DNA of 61,017 nt, taken from the NCBI GenBank assembly GCA_009602725.1, contig WELB01000047.1:685579-746595 (forward strand). The letters run 5' to 3'. Numbering within the stretch: position 1 is the stretch's first letter; each line of letters begins with the position of its first letter. This document shows positions 21,562 to 58,282 of this stretch, in pieces. This DNA is from Spirogloea muscicola. Its lineage: Eukaryota > Streptophyta > Zygnematophyceae > Spirogloeales > Spirogloeaceae. The translations under genes and the position numbers were made by a program. The notes beneath the pieces were generated by a model. It saw nothing but the letters and a program-made list of their open reading frames with translations. It was not told the DNA's origin and ran no database searches.

Positions 21562-21731
<170 letters not shown>

Positions 21732-22229: not shown

Positions 22230-24113
22230 TCCCTCTCCGGCCTCGCCGCCTTCCACGGCGGCCAGCTTCCGCTGCAGCACCACCAGCAGCAGCACCACCA
22301 CCACCACCAGTACCAGCAGCAGCAGCAGCAGCTGCCGCAGCACCAGGCAGCGGCCATGGCGGCGGCGGCCGCTGCCGCCGCCGCCGCGCAGCAGCAGCAG
22401 CAGCAGCAGGGCGGCGGACTGGCGGGCGCGCACCCGCAGGCGGCGAGCGCAAACCTGGCGGCGCCCCAGCTGATGGGCGGCGGGTCGAGCCCCCAGGAGC
22501 ACGACTGGATGAGCGCCCAGCTCAAGAGCAGCTCGCTGCTGGCGGCGCAGCAGCAGCACCACCACCACCAGCACCTGCAGCAGCAGGTGAGTCCCCTGCA
22601 TTACCGTGCATTGGCGACCATTAGTGTTTACACGCGGTTATTGAGCGATTAATCTACGTCAGCAGATGTGCTTGCCATTGTTCTTGGCCACTTTGGCCTT
22701 CCATTATCTCAATACTCCCTCTCCCTCCACCGTTATCATCTCTCTCGCTAATTGCTCCTCCACAATGCATCGCCACTCAAGTAACCGCTACCAGAGTCTG
22801 CGATAATGCTATGTAATCAGTGGCCCCTTGCCAGTTTGCCATATGGGCAGCTCAGTTTTGCTACTTCAAAACCACAGAGCACGACTGACGCCAGCCCTCT
22901 GCAGGCGCTGCATCGGCAGGCAGCCGAGGCTGCGGCGGCGTACATGAGCGCCGCGCAGCGCGCCAACAACCCCGGCATCGTGAAGGTGTCGGCGCTGCCC
23001 CCGCCGCTGAGCGCGGGCCTGGGCCAGTCGTTGCCGGGGGTGGCCATGCCCGCCGAGTCCCCGAGCCTGTCGCAGTCGCCCAACAGCAAGAAGCGGGGCC
23101 TGGAGTCCCCGTTTGTCGGCGAGCGCACGGGCGAGCAGCGGCAGAAGCGCATGATCAAGAACCGGGAGTCGGCCGCCCGCTCCAGGGCCAGGAAGCAGGT
23201 CAGTCCAATCAGTGCCCTCCCTGCTGCCGGCTCAGCTCGTCCTCCGCATTGGCAGGAGTCAGGTTCTCCACGTTGGCAGGAGTCGAGTTGGCGGCTGCTA
23301 GTTGGCAGCTGCGCGAAGCCACCCAGATGTGCTGGCCGCCGACAGCCTCGCGTCCTGCTGCTGCAGGCGTACACGGTGGAGCTGGAGGCGGAGGTCACGC
23401 AACTCAAGGAGGAGAACATGAGGTTGCTGCAAGCCAAGGTGCGTAACGAGAAGCGGCCAGCTGAAACACGTGTGGAGCATGTGTCGTGGCACATGGGGCT
23501 TCAGCCTGCTGCAATGGGGCTGGCAGAAGGAGCGATGCTCATGCATGCGCATGCACCAGATTGGCAGCAGTAATTTTACGCACTGCACTGCACAACCTGC
23601 AATTGAATGAGCTTCTTGGCATTAGCAATCTAGGAGAGCATGACATGGGAATAGCTCAGAAGCTGTACAAATACTCAGGGCCCATGCACTGAATTTCTCT
23701 GTCTTGCAGGAGGAGCTTGAGAGGAGGACAAGTGTTCACGTGAGGCTGGCTGCTGTCTCTTATGTCCTGCATAGTCTGCATGTTCAGGCTACTCGCTTGC
23801 AAGTGCTTTCAGTTTGTACGAGACTGCAGATTAGTGGTCGATATATTGAGTTTTGACTGATACTGATAGTCCAAAGCTTAGCATTGATTGTGACGTTTGC
23901 TCTGCAGCAACACCACTATTTCTACCCCACCACCCACTAGTTGCAGAATACTGCATGTCGCCGGTGACGCTGATGGCCCTGACGCAAGGAAAGTTTGGCC
24001 TACTGCAGGCACAAGCACAGGCAACGCCCCTAAATCTACTCGCAGCTCCAGCCAGAGAAGTGCCGGCAGTCCTGCGGAGGTCTCTCAGGCGCACTCGCAC
24101 GGGCCCCTGGTGA
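22122..24113 (+). CDS. group-A bZIP transcription factor (ABI5/ABF/AREB type), 5' partial
   Basis: DNA-binding regulator expected to recognise ACGT-core (ABRE-like) sites in the nucleus. Exons: 22122-22586, 22905-23198, 23367-23438, 23710-23739, 24009-24113, in phase (at least 321 residues; the N-terminus is in the gap). The first visible exon carries TLGEMTLEDFLVRAGV, the phosphorylatable conserved block of group-A bZIPs, followed by long Gln/His/Ala/Gly tracts. The second ends with the basic region RMIKNRESAARSRARKQ, split from the leucine zipper (AYTVELEAEVTQLKEEN) by an intron, and EELERRT follows. The last exon ends LRRSLRRTRTGPW-stop, the hallmark C-terminus of ABI5/ABF proteins. The final junction is the only soft one: an acceptor at 23908 would give a different short tail, but 24009 keeps phase and yields the family C-terminus. 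In land plants this class works downstream of SnRK2 kinases; whether ABA is involved here cannot be seen. Confidence 0.93.
22627..22720 (+). mobile_element. LINE 3'-end remnant in bZIP intron
   Basis: 22627-22644 reads PheThrArgGlyTyr-stop, followed by GTTCTTGGCCACTTTGGCC, matching the tail type of 318-450 and 44290-44330. It lies in the intron 22587-22904. Confidence 0.55.
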
Positions 24114-45839: not shown

Positions 45840-46716
45840 CCACGACAAGGCGTGGTCCCCCTTTTCCTTTGGCTTTGCACATTGTCCATTCTTTTTCCTT
45901 TTAGGCTGGCTTTGCCAGCCCTTCCTCTCTATGGGCGAGCACTTTCTTTCCCCCCGCCTTTGGTGGTTTGGCGCCTCAGTATAGCTTGTCAGATGGCGTG
46001 CTGCAGTGTGAGTGTGGGGAGCGGTCGACGGACCCGACGGAGCTAGCGGCGCATATCCTTCGCTGCGCCACTGGCGGCGAGCGCACAGTTGCTCACGACC
46101 TCCTCCGCGACGGTATGTTCGGCATCTTTCAGGAGGCCGGATACACGGTTACGATGGAGAATACTTCTGTCATGCCCATCCTTCAGAGGGCCGACGGACT
46201 CCACACGCGCCGCGTCGACCTGGTGGCGTGCACGACGGGCGGTGGCGGGCACATCATTGCCGATGTGGTCACCACTGATGTGGTCGACCGCTCCAACCCG
46301 GGGCTTTCTGCCTCGCGGGCTGGCCACGCTGCGGCAAAGGCCGCTCGCAGCAAGGCGGCCAAACACGCCGACCACCCGGCTGCCGACGAGTTCGTCCCCC
46401 TGGCTGTGGACGTGCATGAGGCTCTCGGATCCCACTGGCTCGACCTGTTGGCCAGGCTTGCACGGCGCGCTGTGTCCCGCAGACGCGGTGAGCCGGCTGA
46501 CTTAAACGCCGCTGGCTCGTGGGCTCAGGTGTATCGTATGCGCTTGTCCGTCTCCCTCCAGCGGTCCATGGCCCACGCCTTGCATCTGCGAGCTGGCCGT
46601 GCTCTCGCTGCGGCCTCCGGCTTTCGTCAGGGGGATAGTTTACCGGCAGCTAGTCTGTCGGATGTGAGGCTCCTCACTCGTAACTACTAAGTGGTCCATC
46701 CTCCCCCGTTCTGTCA
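45840..46716 (+). pseudogene. LINE C-terminal (Cys-His knuckle plus RLE-like) ORF, 5'-truncated
   Basis: The open frame from 45968 to the stop at 46688-46690 encodes CECGERSTDPTELAAHILRC, a His-Asp-Leu-Leu-Arg-Asp-Gly motif, RRVDLVACTTGGGG, IIADVVTTD, AARSKAAKHADH, AGRALAAASGF and LLTRNY-stop. Compared with the 19202 copy it is intact across the endonuclease-like part, but the reverse transcriptase is missing. A foreign tail piece with a hairpin (45903-45921) precedes it, so it inserted into, or recombined with, an older copy. No initiation context is evident, so I treat it as a truncated fragment. It ends close to a gap. Confidence 0.83.
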
Positions 46717-47039
46717 NNNNNNNNNNNNNNNNNNNNNNNNNNNNNNNNNNNNNNNNNNNNNNNNNNNNNNNNNNNNNNNNNNNNNNNNNNNNNNNNNNNN
46801 NNNNNNNNNNNNNNNNNNNNNNNNNNNNNNNNNNNNNNNNNNNNNNNNNNNNNNNNNNNNNNNNNNNNNNNNNNNNNNNNNNNNNNNNNNNNNNNNNNNN
46901 NNNNNNNNNNNNNNNNNNNNNNNNNNNNNNNNNNNNNNNNNNNNNNNNNNNNNNNNNNNNNNNNNNNNNNNNNNNNNNNNNNNNNNNNNNNNNNNNNNNN
47001 NNNNNNNNNNNNNNNNNNNNNNNNNNNNNNNNNNNNNNN
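46717..47039. other. assembly gap
   Basis: 323 undetermined bases inside LINE sequence; repeat collapse is the probable cause. Confidence 0.98.
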
Positions 47040-47667: not shown

Positions 47668-50600
47668 ATGGTCGGCGGCTGGCTGGACCCCGACGTGGAC
47701 GAGGGCTCGGAGGACGACGACGAGGAGGACGACGTCCCCGACGAGGGCGGCGGCGGCTGGCTCTGGCTGGCGAAGTCCAGCCCGTACGTCGGGGGGAAGG
47801 CAGCGGCGATCTCATCCAAGAACTTGCTTGCGAGCAGCTCGCCCCAGAGCGCCGGTGCTCCGCTCCCGCTGGCCAAGGCCTCAGGGCTGCCTGATGGCGG
47901 CTCTACGCAGCAGCTCCAGGAGTCCAACGGCAACGAGGTCACTATCCCGTGCAAGGCCTTTCCCCAAGGTCGAAGCGGCGACGACGATGCGCCGATGCTT
48001 CTGGAGGTGGAGGTGCCACAGAGCCTCGAGCTGAGCAAGAAGCGGAAGCGGGTCAATGGAGGAGGCGACGGCCACCTGGTCCGACAGCCTAGCTCAGCTT
48101 GCCCCCGGAGTCTAGCAGGAAACGAGTGTGCCGTTGCATCAGAAGCAGCCCTAAACCCTAAACCTAGTTGTCTTTGAGCAGACTTCATCTGTCCAACGAC
48201 AAAGTACTGGAGATTGGTTTGGGCAAGCTGTCTGTCCTCTAGTAGAGTTTCGTGGCATGGCAGTCATGCTGACGTTGTACAGAGCGTTGCTTGTACACAG
48301 GTGAGTGACAATGATCAAGCTGTTGGCTCAAGAAGCACCGTTGGTGAAGAGGTGCAGGTCAACGATCATGGTCGTAATGCCAATGTGGAGGTGGTGGCTA
48401 TTATAGCACAAGTGGGAGGAGTCCCACCAGCCACAGTCAACGGTGGACAGTTGCCGAATGTTAACTTGGAGCCAACGGATGCACAAAGGGTGGGAAAGGC
48501 ACCTCAACTTCTCAAAAGCATGCAGGCAGATGATCTTTCGCTTGGGCACGCCCCAGTGGCCTCCGAGGTAATTGAGCAAGAACAGGTCAAGAGCAGTGAT
48601 GCAGAGGCAGGTGAGAGGCGCTCGCATGACGAGGTCAGCGGAGGCGACGAGACACAAATGGATGAGTCTGAGCTGCGGAGGAGGAAGAGCAAGATGCTTT
48701 GGCAAGTGCTGCTGCGGCAGGTGGACCTCACCAAGCTGCAGAAGAAGATTGAGGTGCTCATCTAGTCAAGCAGGCTGCTCATGTATCTCTGGAGAAATAT
48801 CCAGAATGCATAGACAGGAGCTGTCCACTTCACTCCTTTTCGTGGAGTAGGGAAACTTGCAAGAAGATAAACTTGCTGGAGAATTGAAACATACAAAGTG
48901 TCTCGTACACAGTCAACTCCAGCAATCTTTGTACTACAAGTTGATAGGCACCAGGCTGTGCTCATTGGTCGGGATCAACAGGAGTACTGGCTTTAGCTGA
49001 TACCCATTGTTTCTAATCCAGGATCTGCCAACAGTACTCGAGGATACGCCTCCTGGGCTGATTCACATGGACAGTCCATGCAAGGAGGAGGAAGGCGAGG
49101 ACGAGATACTAGATATAGAAGAGGAGGCCGAAGACCTCTCATACCCACCAACTTTCGTTCACAATGAATGCTGTGAGGCATGCTCAACCAGGGGGGAGCT
49201 CTTGTAAGTCGTATACTGCCCTTTTGTTTGTCGACTTGTTGCCAATCTGTACTTAAGATGGGTGTGCAGGGGCAGCATTACTTACCAAGGAGACTTAGTC
49301 TGTGTGCAAGCCTTTCCCGTCCTCGATGTTGTATTTTGCTTCCAGACCATAGCTGGCCACATTCACAACATCAGGCATATAGCAGGAGTGAAGATGGGCC
49401 AGGGAGGAGGTTGTACAGTTGGAGCTGTCATTTGAGTTTGACTGGTGTTGGTGAGGAGGCTGTTGCTAATTATACATTGTGGCACAACCTGGCAGGCTGT
49501 GTGATGGAGCAGGCTGCACAACCACATACCACCTAGCGTGCTGTACTCCTCCTTTGGATGAAGTCCCCTTTGGCAACTGGTATTGTCCAGAATGCGCTTA
49601 CAAGAGGATAAAGGAGGGCGTGGATGTTGTCGCCTCTACAATTGAGTCTATTTGGGGCATGAGAAGCAATCGCCGTGGCCTGCCCCTCATACTGCTGCCT
49701 AGTCCCAGCACGCCAAAAGACACCTCACTCCTGATTGAGATGGAGGACTTACTGCTCTTTCACTTCAGCATGCTACCGGGAGCACTTTCAGAAGAGGTGA
49801 GGACAGGATCAAGTAACTCAGACCCAACATGGGTTTGTGAAGGCATCTCCAATGGCCAACAAATGGAAGCAGAATACTTTGTGAAGTGGGCTGGTGCCTC
49901 CCACTGCCACAACTCATGGCTGAAGGAGAGTGAGGTGCTGTGTGCCCCTCAAGGTGCCCGGGTGCTTGCAGCCTTCAAGAAGCTCTGGGCATGCGGCAAG
50001 GTGAATCAGGAAATGCCTTCCACTATCATTCTTTTCATATCACAATCTGAATAGTAAGGTGCTTCCTGTAGAAGCATCACATCATGCCTCCTCCCTGTCT
50101 GTAGCTTGCTGTCTACCATAATCATATTAAGGGTTTGTGATCACATAACTATATCAATCAACAATATGGGAGCAAGATTTAGCATTATGCAAAGGCCCTG
50201 CAGCACTCAGCTTCAGATGCGCCAAATTGTTGGGTGCACGACAGGTTGAAAAGTGGAAGAATTTGTGGACCAAGCCCCAAAGATTGCTAAGCAGCAAGGA
50301 GATAATGCCCCCAGTACCCTCCCCATCGAGGCGGCTGAGCAGTGGTCGTATAAGGCGGCAGGCTGCCTCGTCTATAATTGGCAAGGAGTGGTGAGGTGCC
50401 TGTGTACTGCAAGATCGGTTATGCGCTCTGTATGGACAGTCACGTATTGTTGGTCTCCAGGGCTACTCTTCATACCACCAGAGTAGCACTCAGCTTTGCA
50501 GCTGCTGCTCACTCAGCAGACAGGGTTCTTGACGACCGCCAATGTTTGGGCTTCACGTGGCTTGCGCATCTGATTTTGCTCGCAGCTTGGCCTGATAATT

Positions 50601-53600
50601 GTGCATAATGTCAAGAAGGCACTCTCCACTAGAGCACTACACTTGTCGTGGGCACTACACATGCCGTGGGGTGCAGTCTTTAACAAAGGCCTGTGTGATT
50701 TCCCTCACGTGGTGCAGTCTGTTGAGAACACACTGATAAAAAGTTCTAGCAGCAGCTGCTTTGTGAGTCAGGGTACTGATTGTAATATCGAGAGAAAGGG
50801 AGCCTGCTGAAAGGCCAAGCCAAGCTTGCTCTCACTGCAGGCTTGTCAAGTGGAGGGGTTTGCCTTACTCTTGCTGCACATGGGAGCCTTCAAACGAGGA
50901 AACGTTGGCGACTGCTGAAGCTCTCACCCTGCAAAGCAACCTTCAAAGTCGTCACCTGATATATCAGAGTCGACTTGATCCAAGCAAGGCTGCCGAGGTG
51001 CGACTCAGACGACCATGAAAGTTGCCTTCATATGTGCCAAACATATATGTATATCCATTCTTAAATTATTTAGCTTGCCCCAAAGCATCTCAAGTACAAC
51101 TTGCAGCTTCTGTGGCTCAGGCTGAGGCCAAGCGAAAGGGTGAGCCCAGCATGAGTGTGCAACTCCCGAAGAGTCTACAGAGTTTGGGAGCAAAGAGCAT
51201 GGCTTATCAGGTGGACTGCCTGAATTGGCTCATATCTCGGTGGAAGTCAGCAGACGACCATGCTCTCACTTCCTTCTCTCAAGGCCTGGTGCGTCTCCCG
51301 TGGCCGACCCCATCTATTGATCTATGGAGGTGGCCTTAGTAGTAGGAGATTGGCCTCAGGAACAATGCAACCTTCATTCTGCACTTTGGTAGCTGCTGCG
51401 TTTGGAAAAAGACATGCCAGTAAGAGCTGGTGCCTAACATATCAGCCATCTGCGCAGTGTGCGGAGTGTATGACTTGCAAGATTGCCTGTTGTTTGCTAG
51501 GGGAGGAGATTTGCTACCATTCTCTTTTTAGAAGGTGTTCTTCGTCATTACCAGATGCCACGCTCAGTCCTCATAATCGGTGAAGCCTCATGCCTCTTTA
51601 GATGGGAGGCACAATTGGAACACTTTCTCCCTGATGTAAACTCTGTACATCTTAAAGGGGGCAAGGCAAGCAGGAACCTCATTCTCAAGGAAGAGCTTGG
51701 GCCCAATCCTACCATTGCTCAGTGCGTTCTAGCTTCACCAGAAGTCATCAACAAGGTGTGTAATCTCGCTGAGGTTGAGCATTAGTAGCGGCCATTAGTG
51801 CATGAATGTTGGCACAGCTCACCTTATGGGGTGTTTTAATGTGAGCATAGGCTTGCTTTGTTGCTCCTCTCCTGCAGTTCGAGATAGAGAGCATCTGCAG
51901 GCAGTGACGTGCTATGATGAACTGCTTCAGAGAGGGCTGCCTTTGACCTGCAAGTATTGCTTGTGGGCTTTGCAGGAGTTAGACTTCTTCGTAAAGGAGA
52001 AGTGGGGCATCATCGTGTTAGAAAGTCCTGGTTGGGCTTCTGTGCCAGTAAAACACTTGGGTTCATTTTCGCAGCTACATGCAGATTTCCGACTTGCGCT
52101 GTCAGAAAAACCACTTGCAGTAAGCTTGTCACGCACCGGCCAGCTGTGATGAACATTTAAGTTCAAGAGCAAAGCTTGGGTGTTGATACTTAGGATACAG
52201 TAGGATAGAACACAGTAGAATGCAAACCTACATTTGAGTTCCACGCAGATGCTTCAGCATGAACGTGATGCAGCGTGTTGTTGAGTACAATGTACAAGGT
52301 GCCATTCAAGATCGAAGTTCTAGTAGTCAGTAGCCCCTCATTTCAGATATTCAGTGCTTGTTTAATTCTTCTGATGCTCATACCACACTAAGTGCAGTGC
52401 ATCCTGCAAATGGTACCATCACATTGATAGCCATTGTCCTTACAATACACAGGATCAGCCACAGGCCAGTGCCAGATTTCTCCTCCACTTCATGAACCCC
52501 GGCAAATATAGTTTGGAGGAGCAGGCAGAGGACTGGAGCCCAATGGAGACGAGCTTGAAGAAAGTGACTGCCCGGGTGGAGAAGAGAGAGCACAAGGCAG
52601 TCAAGGTAGTGGAGATGTGGTTGCCTGTGGACATGCGCAGCATTCAAAAGGAGTACTACAGGTAGTACATTGCACTCGTGCACTTGCCCGAGCTGCCCAT
52701 CTTAGAAGTCAGAATGTTCTTCTGATAGCCCAAGGAGACCTGAGCTTGCATGTTGCGCTCCCTGCTCTGGCACAACATGAGCTCCTCTTCGGGCTTATTG
52801 AGATGTTTGATATGTAGCTGACTCGTGTTGGCCTCTAGAACCATTCCACCTGAGCAAAGTACATGCTCCCAATCTTGGTGCCGTTCCACAGGGCAATCTT
52901 GCGGAGTCAAGCAGGCCTTCTGATGTCTGGCAAGCAGCAACTGGAGAGTGGAGGAGTCACTTTGCAAGACGTTATTGCTCAGCTTCGTAAAGTGAGGATA
53001 CGGCGTTCTACTCTCCCTTGACTTGGTGCAATCTGCAAAGGTCAAGCAGCGAGTATGTCTTAAGCTGCAAGTAAGCCATGTGTTGTCTGACAGTGTTGCG
53101 ACCACGCATCCTTGGTGGCGGGGACAACCAGGATGCAGTGGGCCCTGCAGCTGGCAGATGAGTCCAGTGGCAAGCTGCAGGTGCTTCAGCACCTCCTTAA
53201 CCACTTCCGTCAATTGAAGGAAAAGGTTGTCCTTCTTTACCAGGTACCTCCCTTTCTACCCAACTTCTACTCAAGGTTGTCATTGCAGCATTAGCAAAGA
53301 TATGCTGCTTACGTTCAGCTGCTAAGCTCTTGATATTTTTTGAGAATGTATATTGAGTATGCTCTCTTTGCACCTTCTGGTATTCGTCGAAGGGCTTGTG
53401 GTGCTGTATCCTACGCTGATTTCATACTGCTGAGGGATGGTTGTACAGCTTACTCATTAGTCAATTGCAGTGTCTACTACGTGTGCTGTCAGCACAATTG
53501 AACCAAAATACTCAGTTGCTGGCTCGGTTGTCACTTGACTGTCTTCCACCCTGTTGGGCTTTGCAAGGTGCATGCTATGGGAGCCATTCTTGAAGACATA

Positions 53601-56600
53601 TTCCTAAGGCAGGCGAACTTTAATTACACCTTCATTGACAGTGCAAATACCATTGGAGTCAAATTGGCACAAGTTGCGGAGTTTAGCACCTGGATTTCAG
53701 GCGTAATAGTGATGACCCCACATGATTTAGATATCTCAATGGACATTGCCACTATTAGTGTTGTCATATTTTACGACCACAACTGGGACCCTCTGCTTGA
53801 CCTTCAGGTCAGCCACTCGACTGGTCTTTCCTTTGCTCTTAGATAGGATTTAGCTTTGGAATCCCAGTTGCAAGCGCCTAGAGTCTTGGCTAAGTCTGCG
53901 AGCATAAGGAATTTCTTCCAATGGATTCCATTGTTGGAGTCCATTGTATCTTGCAAACGTCAAAGTTTCGTCAGTTGGCTGTCACTGGGAGTTGCTGATG
54001 ACCCCTCACAAAGCCCTCTGAGGATGGACAACCCTCACTGTTGTCTTATCTTAAATAGTGGCACATGTAGGCCTCACAAGATCCTTGTTGCCTGGTCATC
54101 GTACAGGCGCTTGAAAGACCAGCGAGATTTGGCATGGCTGGTCAGCCCCTGCAAGTTTACCGCCTGTTCACCAGACACTCGGTGGAGCAGCGGTGTTTCC
54201 AGCGCTACCATGCAGCAGCAGGGGACGGCAGCACAAGAACTCTCTTCAACTTTGTAGACCCTACTGGCGTCCCACATGACATGGAGGAGGCCCCAGAGCC
54301 ATGCGAAGCAGTCAGAGAGTGCCAGGAAATACTTACAATAGGGGCTGTAGAGCAATTTAGAGATAACAGGTTGGCGGACATTCCGCAACAGGGAGAAGCC
54401 AAGCTGGTGAAGGACATGGTGATCCGTTTGCATGCGGAGATGGTCGAAGCTTGTGGCCAGTCCACAAGCCAGAGTGGGAGAGAAGTACTACTCTTTGGCG
54501 GTGACAACAACGTGGAGGACGTCGAGACCTCAGGGCAACAGAGCAAGGACGTCAGGTCCTCTGGCGGTGAATTAGGTGACCAGGATGACACTCAGAGCCC
54601 CTGGAAGTGGGTCTGGACAGACATACTTGGTGGTCCCAAGAGGCAGGAGGAGAGAGAGGCGAGCAGGAATACTGGACCTGCAGAAGCTCGCACTCAGGAT
54701 ACTCCGCAGGAGGAAAGAGGTAGTCCCTTAGATCATGTTCAGCATAGTGTGAAGGTAACGGATGTCACGACTACCATCTCAGCTTCCAAAGATGCTGCAC
54801 AATTGCAGGAGAGGCCTAGTTCTTGCGAGCAGGTCAGCCTCACCGGAGAGCTCGAGGTGCCACAGCCTGCAGAAGATGCTGTCAATATAGCAGAACCTAC
54901 AGGCGAGGTCGGCCCCAGTCAGAAGCCCACGGAGCCTGGGGAGCCCATACAAGCAGAACGCGGTGGTTTGGAGGACTTGGAAGGATCTGAGAGCCATCGC
55001 CAGGTGACTCAAAGCCCAGAGCGGGAAGCTCAACAACTTGCACTAGATGCACAGAAGGATGATTTGCAGCAGTACAAGGTTCTGGACAATGGTAACGAGG
55101 TGATGCTCCCCCCAGAGCCTGAGCAGCCACAGCTTGGAGGCGATGGAAGCGCTAGGAGCGCTGGCCCACCTCTGGCAGAGCACTCTTCAGAAATGCATAT
55201 CGCAAGTCCAGGGGCTGCCGCTGTTGCCACAGGGGATGAAGTTGAGAGAGAAGAACGTGAAGTAAGAGAAGGCGGTGACAATGCACAACAAATGGCGTTG
55301 GACCAGGGGGGTGAGGGGAATCAAGTGACTATTGAGAGTGTGCAGGAAGCTTCTCAAGAAGCTGAGCCTCAAGAACAAGTAGCACTTGACGTAGCTGGAA
55401 GCCAAGTTGAAGCAGAAGATGACATCATCCGCGTCATGAGGAGCGAGTTGAAGCAGGCTTGCCGCTTACTCGAACTATCTGTAAGCTCCTGCTCTTTCAG
55501 CCTTTCTGTCTCTGTCAGGTCACTGTTGTCAGATAGAAGGCATAACAAGAGTGAGGGAGAAGAGGAATGTAAGTGGTCTGCTGAGATCAGTAGGCTTTGT
55601 GTTATCTGCAGGACAAGGTAGAGCAAGGGGCTTTGGAGGCATTTGTGATCTTGACCAGCAGATACCGGCTGAAGAAGCGGACTGTGGTGGCCATGATTAG
55701 CACCGTTTTGGCCCTGGTACATTCTCTCTTATGCCAATGTTGTGTTGCAACAGTCAATCATGAATGTCTGTCAAAGTCTTGCAGTATGTGCTTGCAATTA
55801 TGCTCTTGCGAACTGGTCCAGATTCAATGCCAATGCTTGCAGGACATTCATATGCACCATCTTTACCCTGCCTCTGTGAACCCCTCTGGCAGTGTCGCAT
55901 CTCAGCAGAGCGCGAGCTGGTAGACTTCGATTTCCAGGACTGGCTGGACCGTGTTGCAAAGCACAAGGATGTACGTGTGCCGCGCCATAAATTGGATGCA
56001 ATATACCAGAGGCTCGTCCGCACGCTGACTTCACTCACAAACAACTCGATTGACTCTACTCAATCACCCACTCCGCCAGAATCAGCTAACACTGGCCGCA
56101 CACAATCCGATCAAGCCCAAGTGGATCGGCTAGCCGAGCCACCGTTGGCAGGAGTCAGCGAACCACTTTTTCAGCAGCAATTTGGTGTCGACGACTTCAG
56201 TACTGCAGCCGCCGACAACCCAGACGCCGTGTTGGCAAGTGGCGCTCGTGACCCCGACCTTCCGCCAGCGCCCAGCCTCTTCAACCTCTTGGTGCTTTCT
56301 GTCTCAAATGACTCGCTGGACCAGATTTCACAGACTCCGAATCAGGGTGCTGCAAGCGAGCCTGTGCAGTCGCCACAGCCAGCACCAGAGATGCTGGATC
56401 ACTTGACAGATGCCACTAGCACTAGGGGGCTGCAAAGTACTCAAGCGCTAGCCAATGAAAGCCAGCCAGACCGGTTACCCTGCTCTCCTTCCCGGAGCCC
56501 CGCAGAGGACCTGCAGGAGTGGCAGGCACATGACACACGGTCGCTTATGCAGAGGCAGCAGCAGGAGTCGCAAAATCTGCAGCTCCGGCTTGAGAACGCA

Positions 56601-58282
56601 TTGGATGCGCTGGACCGGCAGCTGGCGATGGAGGTTGTGCAGCAGGTGGCAGCGGCCCACCCGGCAGACAAGGAGGCAGATCAGCGCCAAAGCACGGCAA
56701 CCCGACTAATGTTGGTGCAGCAACATGCATTGATCAGAAAGCAGCAGGCACTGTCGATGCAGGAGGCACGGGAGGCGCTGCGTCGGCAGCACCGCGAGCA
56801 GCAGCGGCAGCTGGCATTCCAGCAACGGCGATCGATTGGCGGTGCAGCTGCTGAGACGGCCACAGAACCGTGCGCTGCCCTGCCAGCACCGGTAGCAGCC
56901 GCCGCACCTACGCAGGAGCCCACCTCCCAGCAGCGGCAGGAGAACATTTCGGGCCGCATCCAGGCAACTGGGCCTCAGCCGCAGGAGCTCGCCGAGGTGC
57001 CAGACCCTGCTCCGGCGCCGGCACTGAGGGAGGCTGCTACGGCAGCGGCCGAGCGCCCTCTGCGACCTCTGATCCCTGCCAGGCCACCGCCGTCAGCTGG
57101 GCTGCCAGAAGTGTTAGAACGCTTGATCTCTGGGCAGGCCCAGCAGGCTGCAACATCACAGCTGCCGGCCCAATTACAGCGGAGCGCCAGCCATGGCTAT
57201 GTCCGTGACCCGGTGCTGCTGAGGGAGGCTACTGCGCTTGCCAGAGGCTTACAGCAGCAGCTGGGACGCCGTCAACTGACACCGTTGCTGCCTGGCCAGC
57301 CATCACAGCAGCAACCGCCTGTCGCCCAGGCCAGCCAGCCCCGCCAGTCGGTGGCGACGGCATCGGGCCAGCCTGTCGTCGTTCCGCAGGCGCAGGCAGC
57401 GGTGCAGGCGCCGTCGGTGCTCCAAGCACCGCCGGCGGAGCAGCCGTCAGCACAAGCTTTTGGGCGGCAGGCACCACCGGCAATGCAGGCATCAGCAACG
57501 CCTCAAGCTCTCCCAGCTGCCCAGCCTTCGGCTGTGCCGCAAGGCAGCGACCAGCCAGCGAGCGACTTGCCTATGCTTCCATTGCAGCTGGAGGCTCAGG
57601 GCAGTCCTGAGATGTATCCGCAGCCGGCGATGGTCGCGCTTCTTCAGCAAGTCGTGGCGGCAGGGCAAGCCGAGGATGAGGAGCGGGTGTTGCCGGCGCC
57701 CACCATGGCGGCAGTGTCGCAAGCTCCTACCATAGAGTTGGGGAGCGCGGTCGATCAGATGATGGATCCGGTCTTCCTCCAGCCAGCTGACTTGCTCTCT
57801 GCTCAGATCACGAGCCCCTTCGCTGCAGAGGAGTTGCGGCTCAAGATCAAGCTCAACTCCATCAACAACAAGTACAAGGTTACCGTGAGTACTTGACCCC
57901 ACACTTTTGATAATAATTCGAGAGCGGCAGGAGGTGTTCCTTAACTCCCGGTTACTGGACCGTAGGATTCAGTATTAGTAGGAGCACTAAGCCCACTGCT
58001 TGGCAAGTGGAGGCAGCAGCTGTTTGGCATGTTCTGATCTGCTGGCCCAATCATCTCTGGGTGCAGTCCGCAAATACCATTGCGGAGTACGAGCAAGAAG
58101 CCAGCAGGTTACGGCAGCTATACCAAACCAAGCTCCACGACCTTAACAATGTAAGGCTGGGGCAGACACAGCTGGTCCTCAACATGCGGCATATCTTGAT
58201 GTCCAACCAACACCTTGCGGAGGCAATGAAGAGCAAGTCCTCTTGGGACCAAGCAGGAGCTGAGAGCTTGCCAAGATTATAG
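47668..58282 (+). CDS. MOM1: MOM1-like protein: PHD finger, two chromodomains, degenerate SNF2 helicase, CMM2-like C-terminus
   Basis: Predicted nuclear chromatin protein; Arabidopsis MOM1 maintains transcriptional silencing. Exons: 47668-48078 (end uncertain), 48301-48753, 49022-49203, 49496-50000, 50245-50390, 50841-50997, 51121-51292, 51532-51755, 51901-52119, 52453-52661, 52892-52991, 53094-53243, 53568-53807, 54107-55480, 55612-55716, 55893-57884, 58067-58282 (about 2284 residues). An in-frame TGA lies just before the Met. PHD: CEACSTRGELLLCDGAGC, then YHLACC and WYCPECA. Chromodomains: AEYFVKWAGASHCHNSW and EWLVKWRGLPYSCCTWE. The SNF2 lobes are recognisable (AYQVDCLNWLISRW, KEYYRAILRSQ, CCDHASLV, SVVIFYDHNWDPLLDLQ, LQVYRLFTRHSVEQR), but Walker A and DExH are lost. 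Acidic and Gln-rich disorder follows. The end (EYEQEASRLRQLYQTKLHDL, MSNQHLAEAMKSKS) resembles the CMM2 coiled coil. Confidence 0.87.
48147..48170. repeat. CCCTAAA motifs in MOM1-like intron 1
   Basis: CCCTAAACCCTAAACCTAG lies within the first intron of the MOM1-like gene (to 48300). Confidence 0.85.

Follow-up and report, generated by a model that had tools for sequence, protein, structure and literature searches.

The locus analysed here raises the question of whether a MOM1-type silencing protein is encoded in the genome of a streptophyte alga. In the accessible part of PMC2507757, MOM1 is said to have arisen together with the vascular plants, and none is reported in Physcomitrella or Chlamydomonas. 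The window, a stretch of 61,017 nucleotides from the zygnematophyte Spirogloea muscicola (contig WELB01000047.1, positions 685,579 to 746,595; C47:685579-746595 in the 153-Mb eukaryotic assembly of 471 contigs), contains on its forward strand a gene of 17 exons at 47668..58282, which encodes a protein of 2259 residues. We propose, with a probability of about 0.78 and from sequence analysis, that this gene belongs to the MOM1 family, being a CHD3-derived SNF2 protein that has lost its ATPase motifs and is present in three copies after a genome triplication. Such a triplication is reported for S. muscicola in the accessible part of PMC7994812. Many genes of this genome occur in threes, and the GRAS genes gave 92 exon-level matches, with many of the places in threes. 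GRAS genes taken by themselves would fit a zygnematophyte or a land plant.

The use of the C-terminal piece of the protein as a query led to six protein-search matches at three loci, namely the MOM1-like gene itself on C47 and its homeologous copies on C66 and C46. The gene model was derived from the alignment of these three copies on the basis of conserved frames and splice sites. The other two copies encode 2262 and 2258 residues. No internal stops are found in any of the three, and the exon lengths differ by multiples of three only; for exon 15 of the C66 copy this rule requires a duplicated donor to be read at its first copy, which was done by hand. All 16 introns are bordered by GT and AG in all three copies. 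The single phase-consistent gene of 17 exons described in the initial annotation is therefore confirmed by the three-copy model in coordinates and strand. An earlier automatic model, in which exon 14 was split at a GC donor and exons 2, 15 and 16 were bordered otherwise, has been superseded. A pseudogene was considered and judged unlikely, as all three copies are intact and the ratios of nonsynonymous to synonymous substitutions (dN/dS) of the domains range from 0.04 to 0.48. The 5′ end is the weakest part of the model, the donor of the first intron (48051, GTCAAT) being weak and uncertain. An assembly gap, seen as a run of N at about 46716-47039, is located just upstream of the gene, and a 5′ exon or the promoter may be missing there. 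Telomere-type CCCTAAA repeats occur in the first intron (48051-48175), and the C66 copy carries a 42-bp insertion with CCCTAAA-type units directly after the proposed first donor.

The N-terminal half of the protein shows the organization of a CHD3 remodeller. Exons 1 and 2 (47668-48051, 48301-48753) encode an acidic, low-complexity N-terminus with a KKRKR stretch, the frame of which is kept in the three copies. In the whole spliced protein, Pfam detects a PHD finger at residues 330-373 (PF00628, E 1.9e-6) and two chromodomain stretches (PF00385, E 2e-12, best at 555-579). The PHD finger and chromodomain 1 (residues ~449-508) are encoded by exons 3 and 4 (49022-49203, 49496-50000), and chromodomain 2 (residues ~554-609) by exons 5 and 6 (50245-50390, 50841-50997). 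Scanned alone, chromodomain 1 reaches 23.0 bits, below the cut-off of 25.1. The N-terminal lobe of the SNF2 region (PF00176, E 4.5e-13, residues 638-907 of the whole spliced protein) is encoded by exons 7 to 11 (51121-51288, 51501-51755, 51976-52119, 52453-52661, 52892-52991) and the start of exon 12, at 51121..53111. The Helicase_C lobe (PF00271, E 4.7e-5, 24.0 bits with a cut-off of 23.5, residues 928-1040) follows at 53094..54133 in exons 12 and 13 (53094-53243, 53568-53807) and the start of exon 14. The PHD finger, the two chromodomains and the SNF2 region proposed in the initial annotation are thus borne out, and the gene has the CHD3-type make-up expected of a MOM1 protein. Its closest relative in the PDB is human CHD4 (E 1.8e-50), the best among 134 PDB sequences at E ≤ 0.001.

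The catalytic motifs depart from those of a canonical CHD3 or PICKLE (PKL) protein, whose intact ATPase motifs were not found in the alignments of the MOM1-like protein to CHD4, CHD1 and ISW1. Walker A reads GLGRR in place of GLGKT, with both the lysine and the threonine replaced. With CHD1 and ISW1 as alignment partners, ESPG occupies the DEAH position, which falls into a gap with CHD4. Motif III reads LSEKPLAD (LSERPLAD in the C46 copy) instead of LTGTPLQN, motif V of the helicase lobe is replaced, and motif VI is altered, with RPARFGM for RAHRIGQ. The stretches GLGRRFAT, VLESPGWAS and RPARFGMAGQ are identical across the three copies. The SNF2 catalytic residues are thus substituted as in MOM1 proteins, in a comparison made by motif and not with the replacements found in plant MOM1. 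DUF1087, a further mark of canonical CHD3/PKL proteins, was not found by Pfam in the MOM1-like protein at E 0.01.

Despite the lost ATPase motifs, the SNF2 and helicase lobes are under purifying selection. Their dN/dS values, calculated by the Nei-Gojobori method for the copy pairs window-C66, window-C46 and C66-C46 (given in this order throughout, as estimates without confidence limits), are 0.18, 0.20 and 0.09 for the SNF2 lobe and 0.15, 0.18 and 0.17 for Helicase_C. Since they are constrained without the motifs, their role is probably that of a structural or binding scaffold and not that of an ATP-driven motor. This constraint in the alga contrasts with Arabidopsis, where the SNF2 lobes are described as dispensable for silencing. 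The corresponding values are 0.39, 0.47 and 0.41 for the N-terminus (exons 1-2), 0.27, 0.26 and 0.33 for the PHD finger, and 0.36, 0.25, 0.48 and 0.25, 0.14, 0.21 for the two chromodomains, respectively.

The part of the protein behind the helicase lobe carries two MOM1-type regions. Exon 14 (54107..55480) encodes the end of the helicase lobe, a long, weakly constrained linker (dN/dS 1.00, 0.79 and 0.61) and the start of the Pfam MOM1-like domain PF25029. This domain (residues 1470-1582, 55421..56066) extends over the end of exon 14, exon 15 (55612-55716) and the start of exon 16, and shows dN/dS values of 0.35, 0.37 and 0.33. It is located between the helicase and the C-terminus in all three copies, and in two of them it exceeds the cut-off of 27 bits when scanned alone: the window copy scores 31.2 bits (E 2.2e-7, model positions 5-104 of 127) and the C66 copy 29.7 bits (E 6.1e-7, model positions 9-104 of 127). 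The CMM2 of PDB entry 3vem has no match to the PF25029 model, and PF25029 does not cover CMM2. A stretch that we take to be plant MOM1 sequence scores 209 bits against this model, and by way of that stretch PF25029 probably corresponds to the CMM1 region. A PF25029 family search over the genome, run without a positive control, gave no match; the domain is split by exons. Exon 16 (55893..57884) continues with a linker rich in Q, P and A (dN/dS 0.52, 0.53 and 0.71) and encodes the first part of a C-terminal coiled coil.

This coiled coil (residues 2164-2245, 57810..58237) is split by the last intron (57885-58066), and its second part is encoded by exon 17 (58067-58282). The peptide MSNQHLAEAMKSKS was confirmed near the protein end, with 14 residues following MKSK. 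The 82 residues of Arabidopsis MOM1 (AtMOM1) CMM2 as given in PDB 3vem served as reference, and the algal segment matches them without a gap over the full length, from the PF at the start to the SK at the end, with 16, 17 and 16 identities in the three copies. When the 82-mer was slid along the last 160 residues, one diagonal scored 58 and the next best 3. Among the 2178 windows of the whole protein the CMM2-like window was the best, the runner-up scoring 18. None of 2000 shuffles was as good in local alignment for any of the three copies, and none of 20000 in ungapped comparison at the same register for the window copy; the score was reached by 5 of 50000 shuffles that kept the hydrophobic/polar pattern and by 71 of 50000 that kept four residue classes. 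Out of 30419 stop-free windows of 82 residues from unspliced DNA, three scored above 20, all of them in the corresponding exon of the C46 copy at overlapping loci. The overlap of hydrophobic positions is greatest at register 0 (19 of 28) and next at -7 and -11, which are coiled-coil repeat lengths. The CMM2-like end has dN/dS values of 0.04, 0.26 and 0.11. The resemblance to CMM2 suggested in the initial annotation thus survives the register and shuffle tests against the solved CMM2, and PF25029 is present as well; neither this domain nor the loss of the ATPase motifs had been noted there. Judged by these comparisons, homology to CMM2 is likely.

If the protein works as MOM1 does, the PHD finger and the chromodomains would read histone marks and place it on chromatin. 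The CMM2-like coiled coil would dimerise the protein and recruit silencing partners, which in Arabidopsis are PIAL1/2 and, through them, MORC6. The outcome of such recruitment would be the repression of transposons and repeats. A conserved dimerisation through CMM2 is plausible.

Several observations weigh against this assignment. The CMM2 motif, supported by the full-length match and the shuffles, is weak or negative in standard searches. BLASTP of the C-terminus against AtMOM1 CMM2 returned no alignment at E ≤ 100. The profile search of the C-terminal piece that had been suggested as a check, in the form run here (phmmer against PDB chains, AtMOM1 CMM2 included), returned none at E ≤ 10. When the CMM2 of 3vem was searched over the whole genome, it hit two other places (E 1.71 and 2.97) and not the MOM1-like exon, and hhalign gave a probability of 7.1 (E 0.005) over 66 columns with a gap. 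Eight residues of AtMOM1 CMM2 were mutated by Nishimura et al. (accessible part of PMC3276543). One of the eight is identical in the alga (F1736) and two are hydrophobic exchanges (L1765 to Y, I1802 to M). The remaining five are not conserved, including L1761, which is T in the alga and which, according to the same part of that source, is one of the two residues changed in the AtMOM1 mutant that abolishes self-interaction. CMM3 with its SUMO-interacting motif (SIM) is absent, as the 14 residues that follow CMM2 to the end of the protein contain no such motif. The SIM reads VVCLS in Arabidopsis and is not required for silencing there (accessible part of PMC6084981), and for this reason CMM3 is treated here as a variable, not a defining, feature of MOM1. 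PF25029 falls just below its cut-off in the C46 copy scanned alone (26.6 bits, E 5.6e-6, model positions 6-106 of 127) and in the scan of the complete protein from the window (26.2 bits, E 7.6e-6). Both arginines of motif VI are kept, so the helicase lobe is not degenerate throughout. Finally, the SNF2 tree did not settle the origin. It comprised 17 rows, including CHD4, CHD1, ISW1 and 11 of the 20 fetched algal SNF2 loci and no full plant MOM1 sequence; the tree did not include L019, L021, L025, L028, L030, L032, L035, L036 and L037, which are short or diverged. The MOM1-like branch has a length of 2.9 and stands beside the CHD families with a support of 69/82. The approximately unbiased test (p-AU) rejected none of the groupings, with 0.106 for CHD3, 0.105 for CHD1, 0.401 for ISWI and 0.113 for L022/L029.

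A CHD3 origin of the gene therefore appears from its architecture and best matches, not from the tree. The part from the PHD finger to the helicase gave at least 55 matches in the genome (60 of 105 candidates scored), 33 of them in the three copies. The next ones, among the matches listed, are on C56, C3 and C107 (E 2.4e-8, 8.4e-8 and 7.0e-7), and the remaining 19 are weaker, many lying in the PHD finger alone. The locus L024 (C3:759001-769000) contains a PHD finger, chromodomains, intact GLGKT and DEGH motifs and DUF1087. By these features it is an ordinary CHD3, and the alga thus carries both branches. A PWWP-like match (L024:9198-9815, reverse strand, 28.6 bits with a cut-off of 25.6, first 19 of 93 positions) is located roughly 2.2 kb upstream of the exon that encodes the PHD finger of this CHD3, in the same gene or in a neighbour. 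The MOM1-like gene is not among the matches listed in a genome-wide SNF2 search (96 of 161 candidates scored); it is split over exons and diverged.

The very long, unplaced SNF2 branch, the remote CMM2 match without L1761 and the absence of CMM3 could also be explained by a lineage-specific CHD3 paralogue that degenerated and acquired a coiled coil independently, in parallel to MOM1. Arabidopsis At5g44800 is described as CHD3-like, with mutations in its SNF2 residues (accessible part of PMC2507757). Against such a paralogue stand PF25029, which all three copies carry at the expected position in the domain order, and the gap-free C-terminal match over all 82 residues of CMM2; convergence on two MOM1-type regions is improbable. 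Nine sequence pieces from the algal CHD3 or its surroundings showed no PF25029, in a scan that an exon-split domain could escape and that did not reach the C-terminal end of this CHD3. We consider this explanation unlikely. An erroneous joining of two neighbouring genes, one a CHD3 fragment and the other encoding an independent coiled-coil protein, would be in line with the length of exons 14 and 16, with the weakly constrained stretches in them and with a gene model built from the comparison of copies. The domains, however, straddle the exon junctions throughout: the PHD finger crosses 3/4, chromodomain 2 crosses 5/6, SNF2 extends over 7-12, Helicase_C over 12-14 and PF25029 over 14-16, and CMM2 crosses 16/17. 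The C-terminal exons can therefore hardly come from another gene. Together with the frame and splice sites conserved across the three copies, this makes a joining very improbable. A CHD3-type remodeller in which ATP hydrolysis is retained would account for the purifying selection on the lobes and for the retained arginines of motif VI, but the Walker A lysine and threonine, DEAH, motif III and motif V are all replaced, and from these motifs ATP hydrolysis seems very unlikely. We thus prefer a MOM1-family gene.

With a MOM1 protein in a zygnematophyte, the family would date back to before land plants. The initial annotation had argued for an origin earlier than vascular plants if the host was a streptophyte alga, and the occurrence of the CHD3-type set, a MOM1-type C-terminus and PF25029 in one algal gene supports this. 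It suggests that the MOM1 silencing branch predates land plants. No report of MOM1 in an alga or a bryophyte was found in the accessible parts of the open-access literature, subscription papers and supplements being outside this search.

The relation of MOM1 to RNA polymerases IV and V (Pol IV/V) is less obvious. NRPD1 and NRPE1 are described as absent from streptophyte algal genomes (PMC7994812), NRP(D)E1 as first appearing in Klebsormidiophyceae and Charophyceae (PMC10991848), and the NRPB1/NRPD1 duplication as common to charophytes and embryophytes (PMC2834690), each according to the accessible part of the source. An RPB1 domain search of the genome (34 of 34 candidates scored) gave 30 matches. 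The triplets C173/C71/C32 and C360/C59/C210, together with a family at C113/C73, represent three nuclear-type families. No clear fourth nuclear RPB1-like family and no largest subunit of the Pol IV/V type were found in this exon-level search, which could miss one. MOM1 thus seems to persist in an alga without Pol IV/V, whether by loss or by absence. The order of MOM1 before Pol IV/V was considered and is not borne out: according to the accessible parts of PMC10991848 and PMC2834690, the NRPD1/E1 duplication belongs to Klebsormidiophyceae/Charophyceae or to charophytes, so that Zygnematophyceae may have lost NRPD1/E1. The papers disagree on the age of Pol IV/V, and MOM1 need not predate it. We slightly favour the view that the basic job of MOM1 is repression by a chromatin-reading dimer without Pol V, that the Pol V coupling of Arabidopsis is a separate layer, and that MOM1 was lost in Physcomitrella. 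If the alga truly lacks Pol V, it would be a natural setting in which to test the function of MOM1 without this polymerase. Besides the three families, an isolated short RPB1-like piece with NADFDGD was seen at C56:533092-533163 (L040). Pieces of plastid/bacterial-type RNA polymerase beta'/gamma were seen at C392:3801-4300 (L041) and C405:35201-36200 (L039); the C392 piece is closest to plastid-type chains (E 4.9e-47) and represents plastid DNA in the assembly or a nuclear insertion.

As to possible partners and targets, PIAL is said to occur in Spirogloea and Mesotaenium (accessible part of PMC11371177). Our SP-RING search of the genome gave eight weak matches at five places, none above the cut-off, and PIAL was not distinguished among them. 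A search for MORC S5 gave no match in the genome and had no positive control. The same applies to a genome search for dynein heavy chain. In a chromodomain search, at least 150 matches came up when 150 of 509 candidates were scored, which exceeds what ordinary genes would account for. Most of them probably belong to chromodomain-bearing long terminal repeat (LTR) retroelements, which are possible targets of a MOM1-type silencer. Elsewhere in the window, a bZIP basic region (PF00170, E 3.8e-8) is encoded at 22785-23570 on the forward strand, and an uninterrupted run of 121 A (21611-21731) lies inside long open frames on both strands. Counted per 2 kb, the G+C content ranges from 47 to 62% across the window.

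The accessible part of PMC2507757 describes for poplar PtMOM1 a PHD finger, double chromodomains, a complete SNF2 region and CMM motifs together, and the structural features of PtMOM1 are shared by SmMOM1 of Selaginella. Compared with these text descriptions, the algal protein likewise has a PHD finger, two chromodomains, an SNF2 region with substituted catalytic residues and CMM-type regions. It differs from both in that its host stands outside the vascular plants, that no CMM3 follows CMM2 and that CMM2 is remote in sequence. With Arabidopsis MOM1 it shares the Pfam MOM1-like domain and a coiled coil of the CMM2 type, equal in length (82 residues) and in register. AtMOM1 has lost the PHD finger, the chromodomains and the first SNF2 lobe (accessible part of PMC2507757), whereas the algal protein keeps all three. 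With CHD3/PICKLE and the algal L024, whose C3 locus is among the nearest genome relatives listed, it shares the PHD finger, two chromodomains and SNF2. Unlike L024, with its intact GLGKT, DEGH and DUF1087, the MOM1-like gene shows none of these and possesses PF25029 and a CMM2-like end. The transitional architecture postulated in the initial annotation is therefore not upheld: as the same set is already described for PtMOM1 and SmMOM1 and the ATPase motifs are already lost in the alga, the protein looks like a full MOM1 and not like an intermediate. The architecture is already known; what is new are its host and its age.

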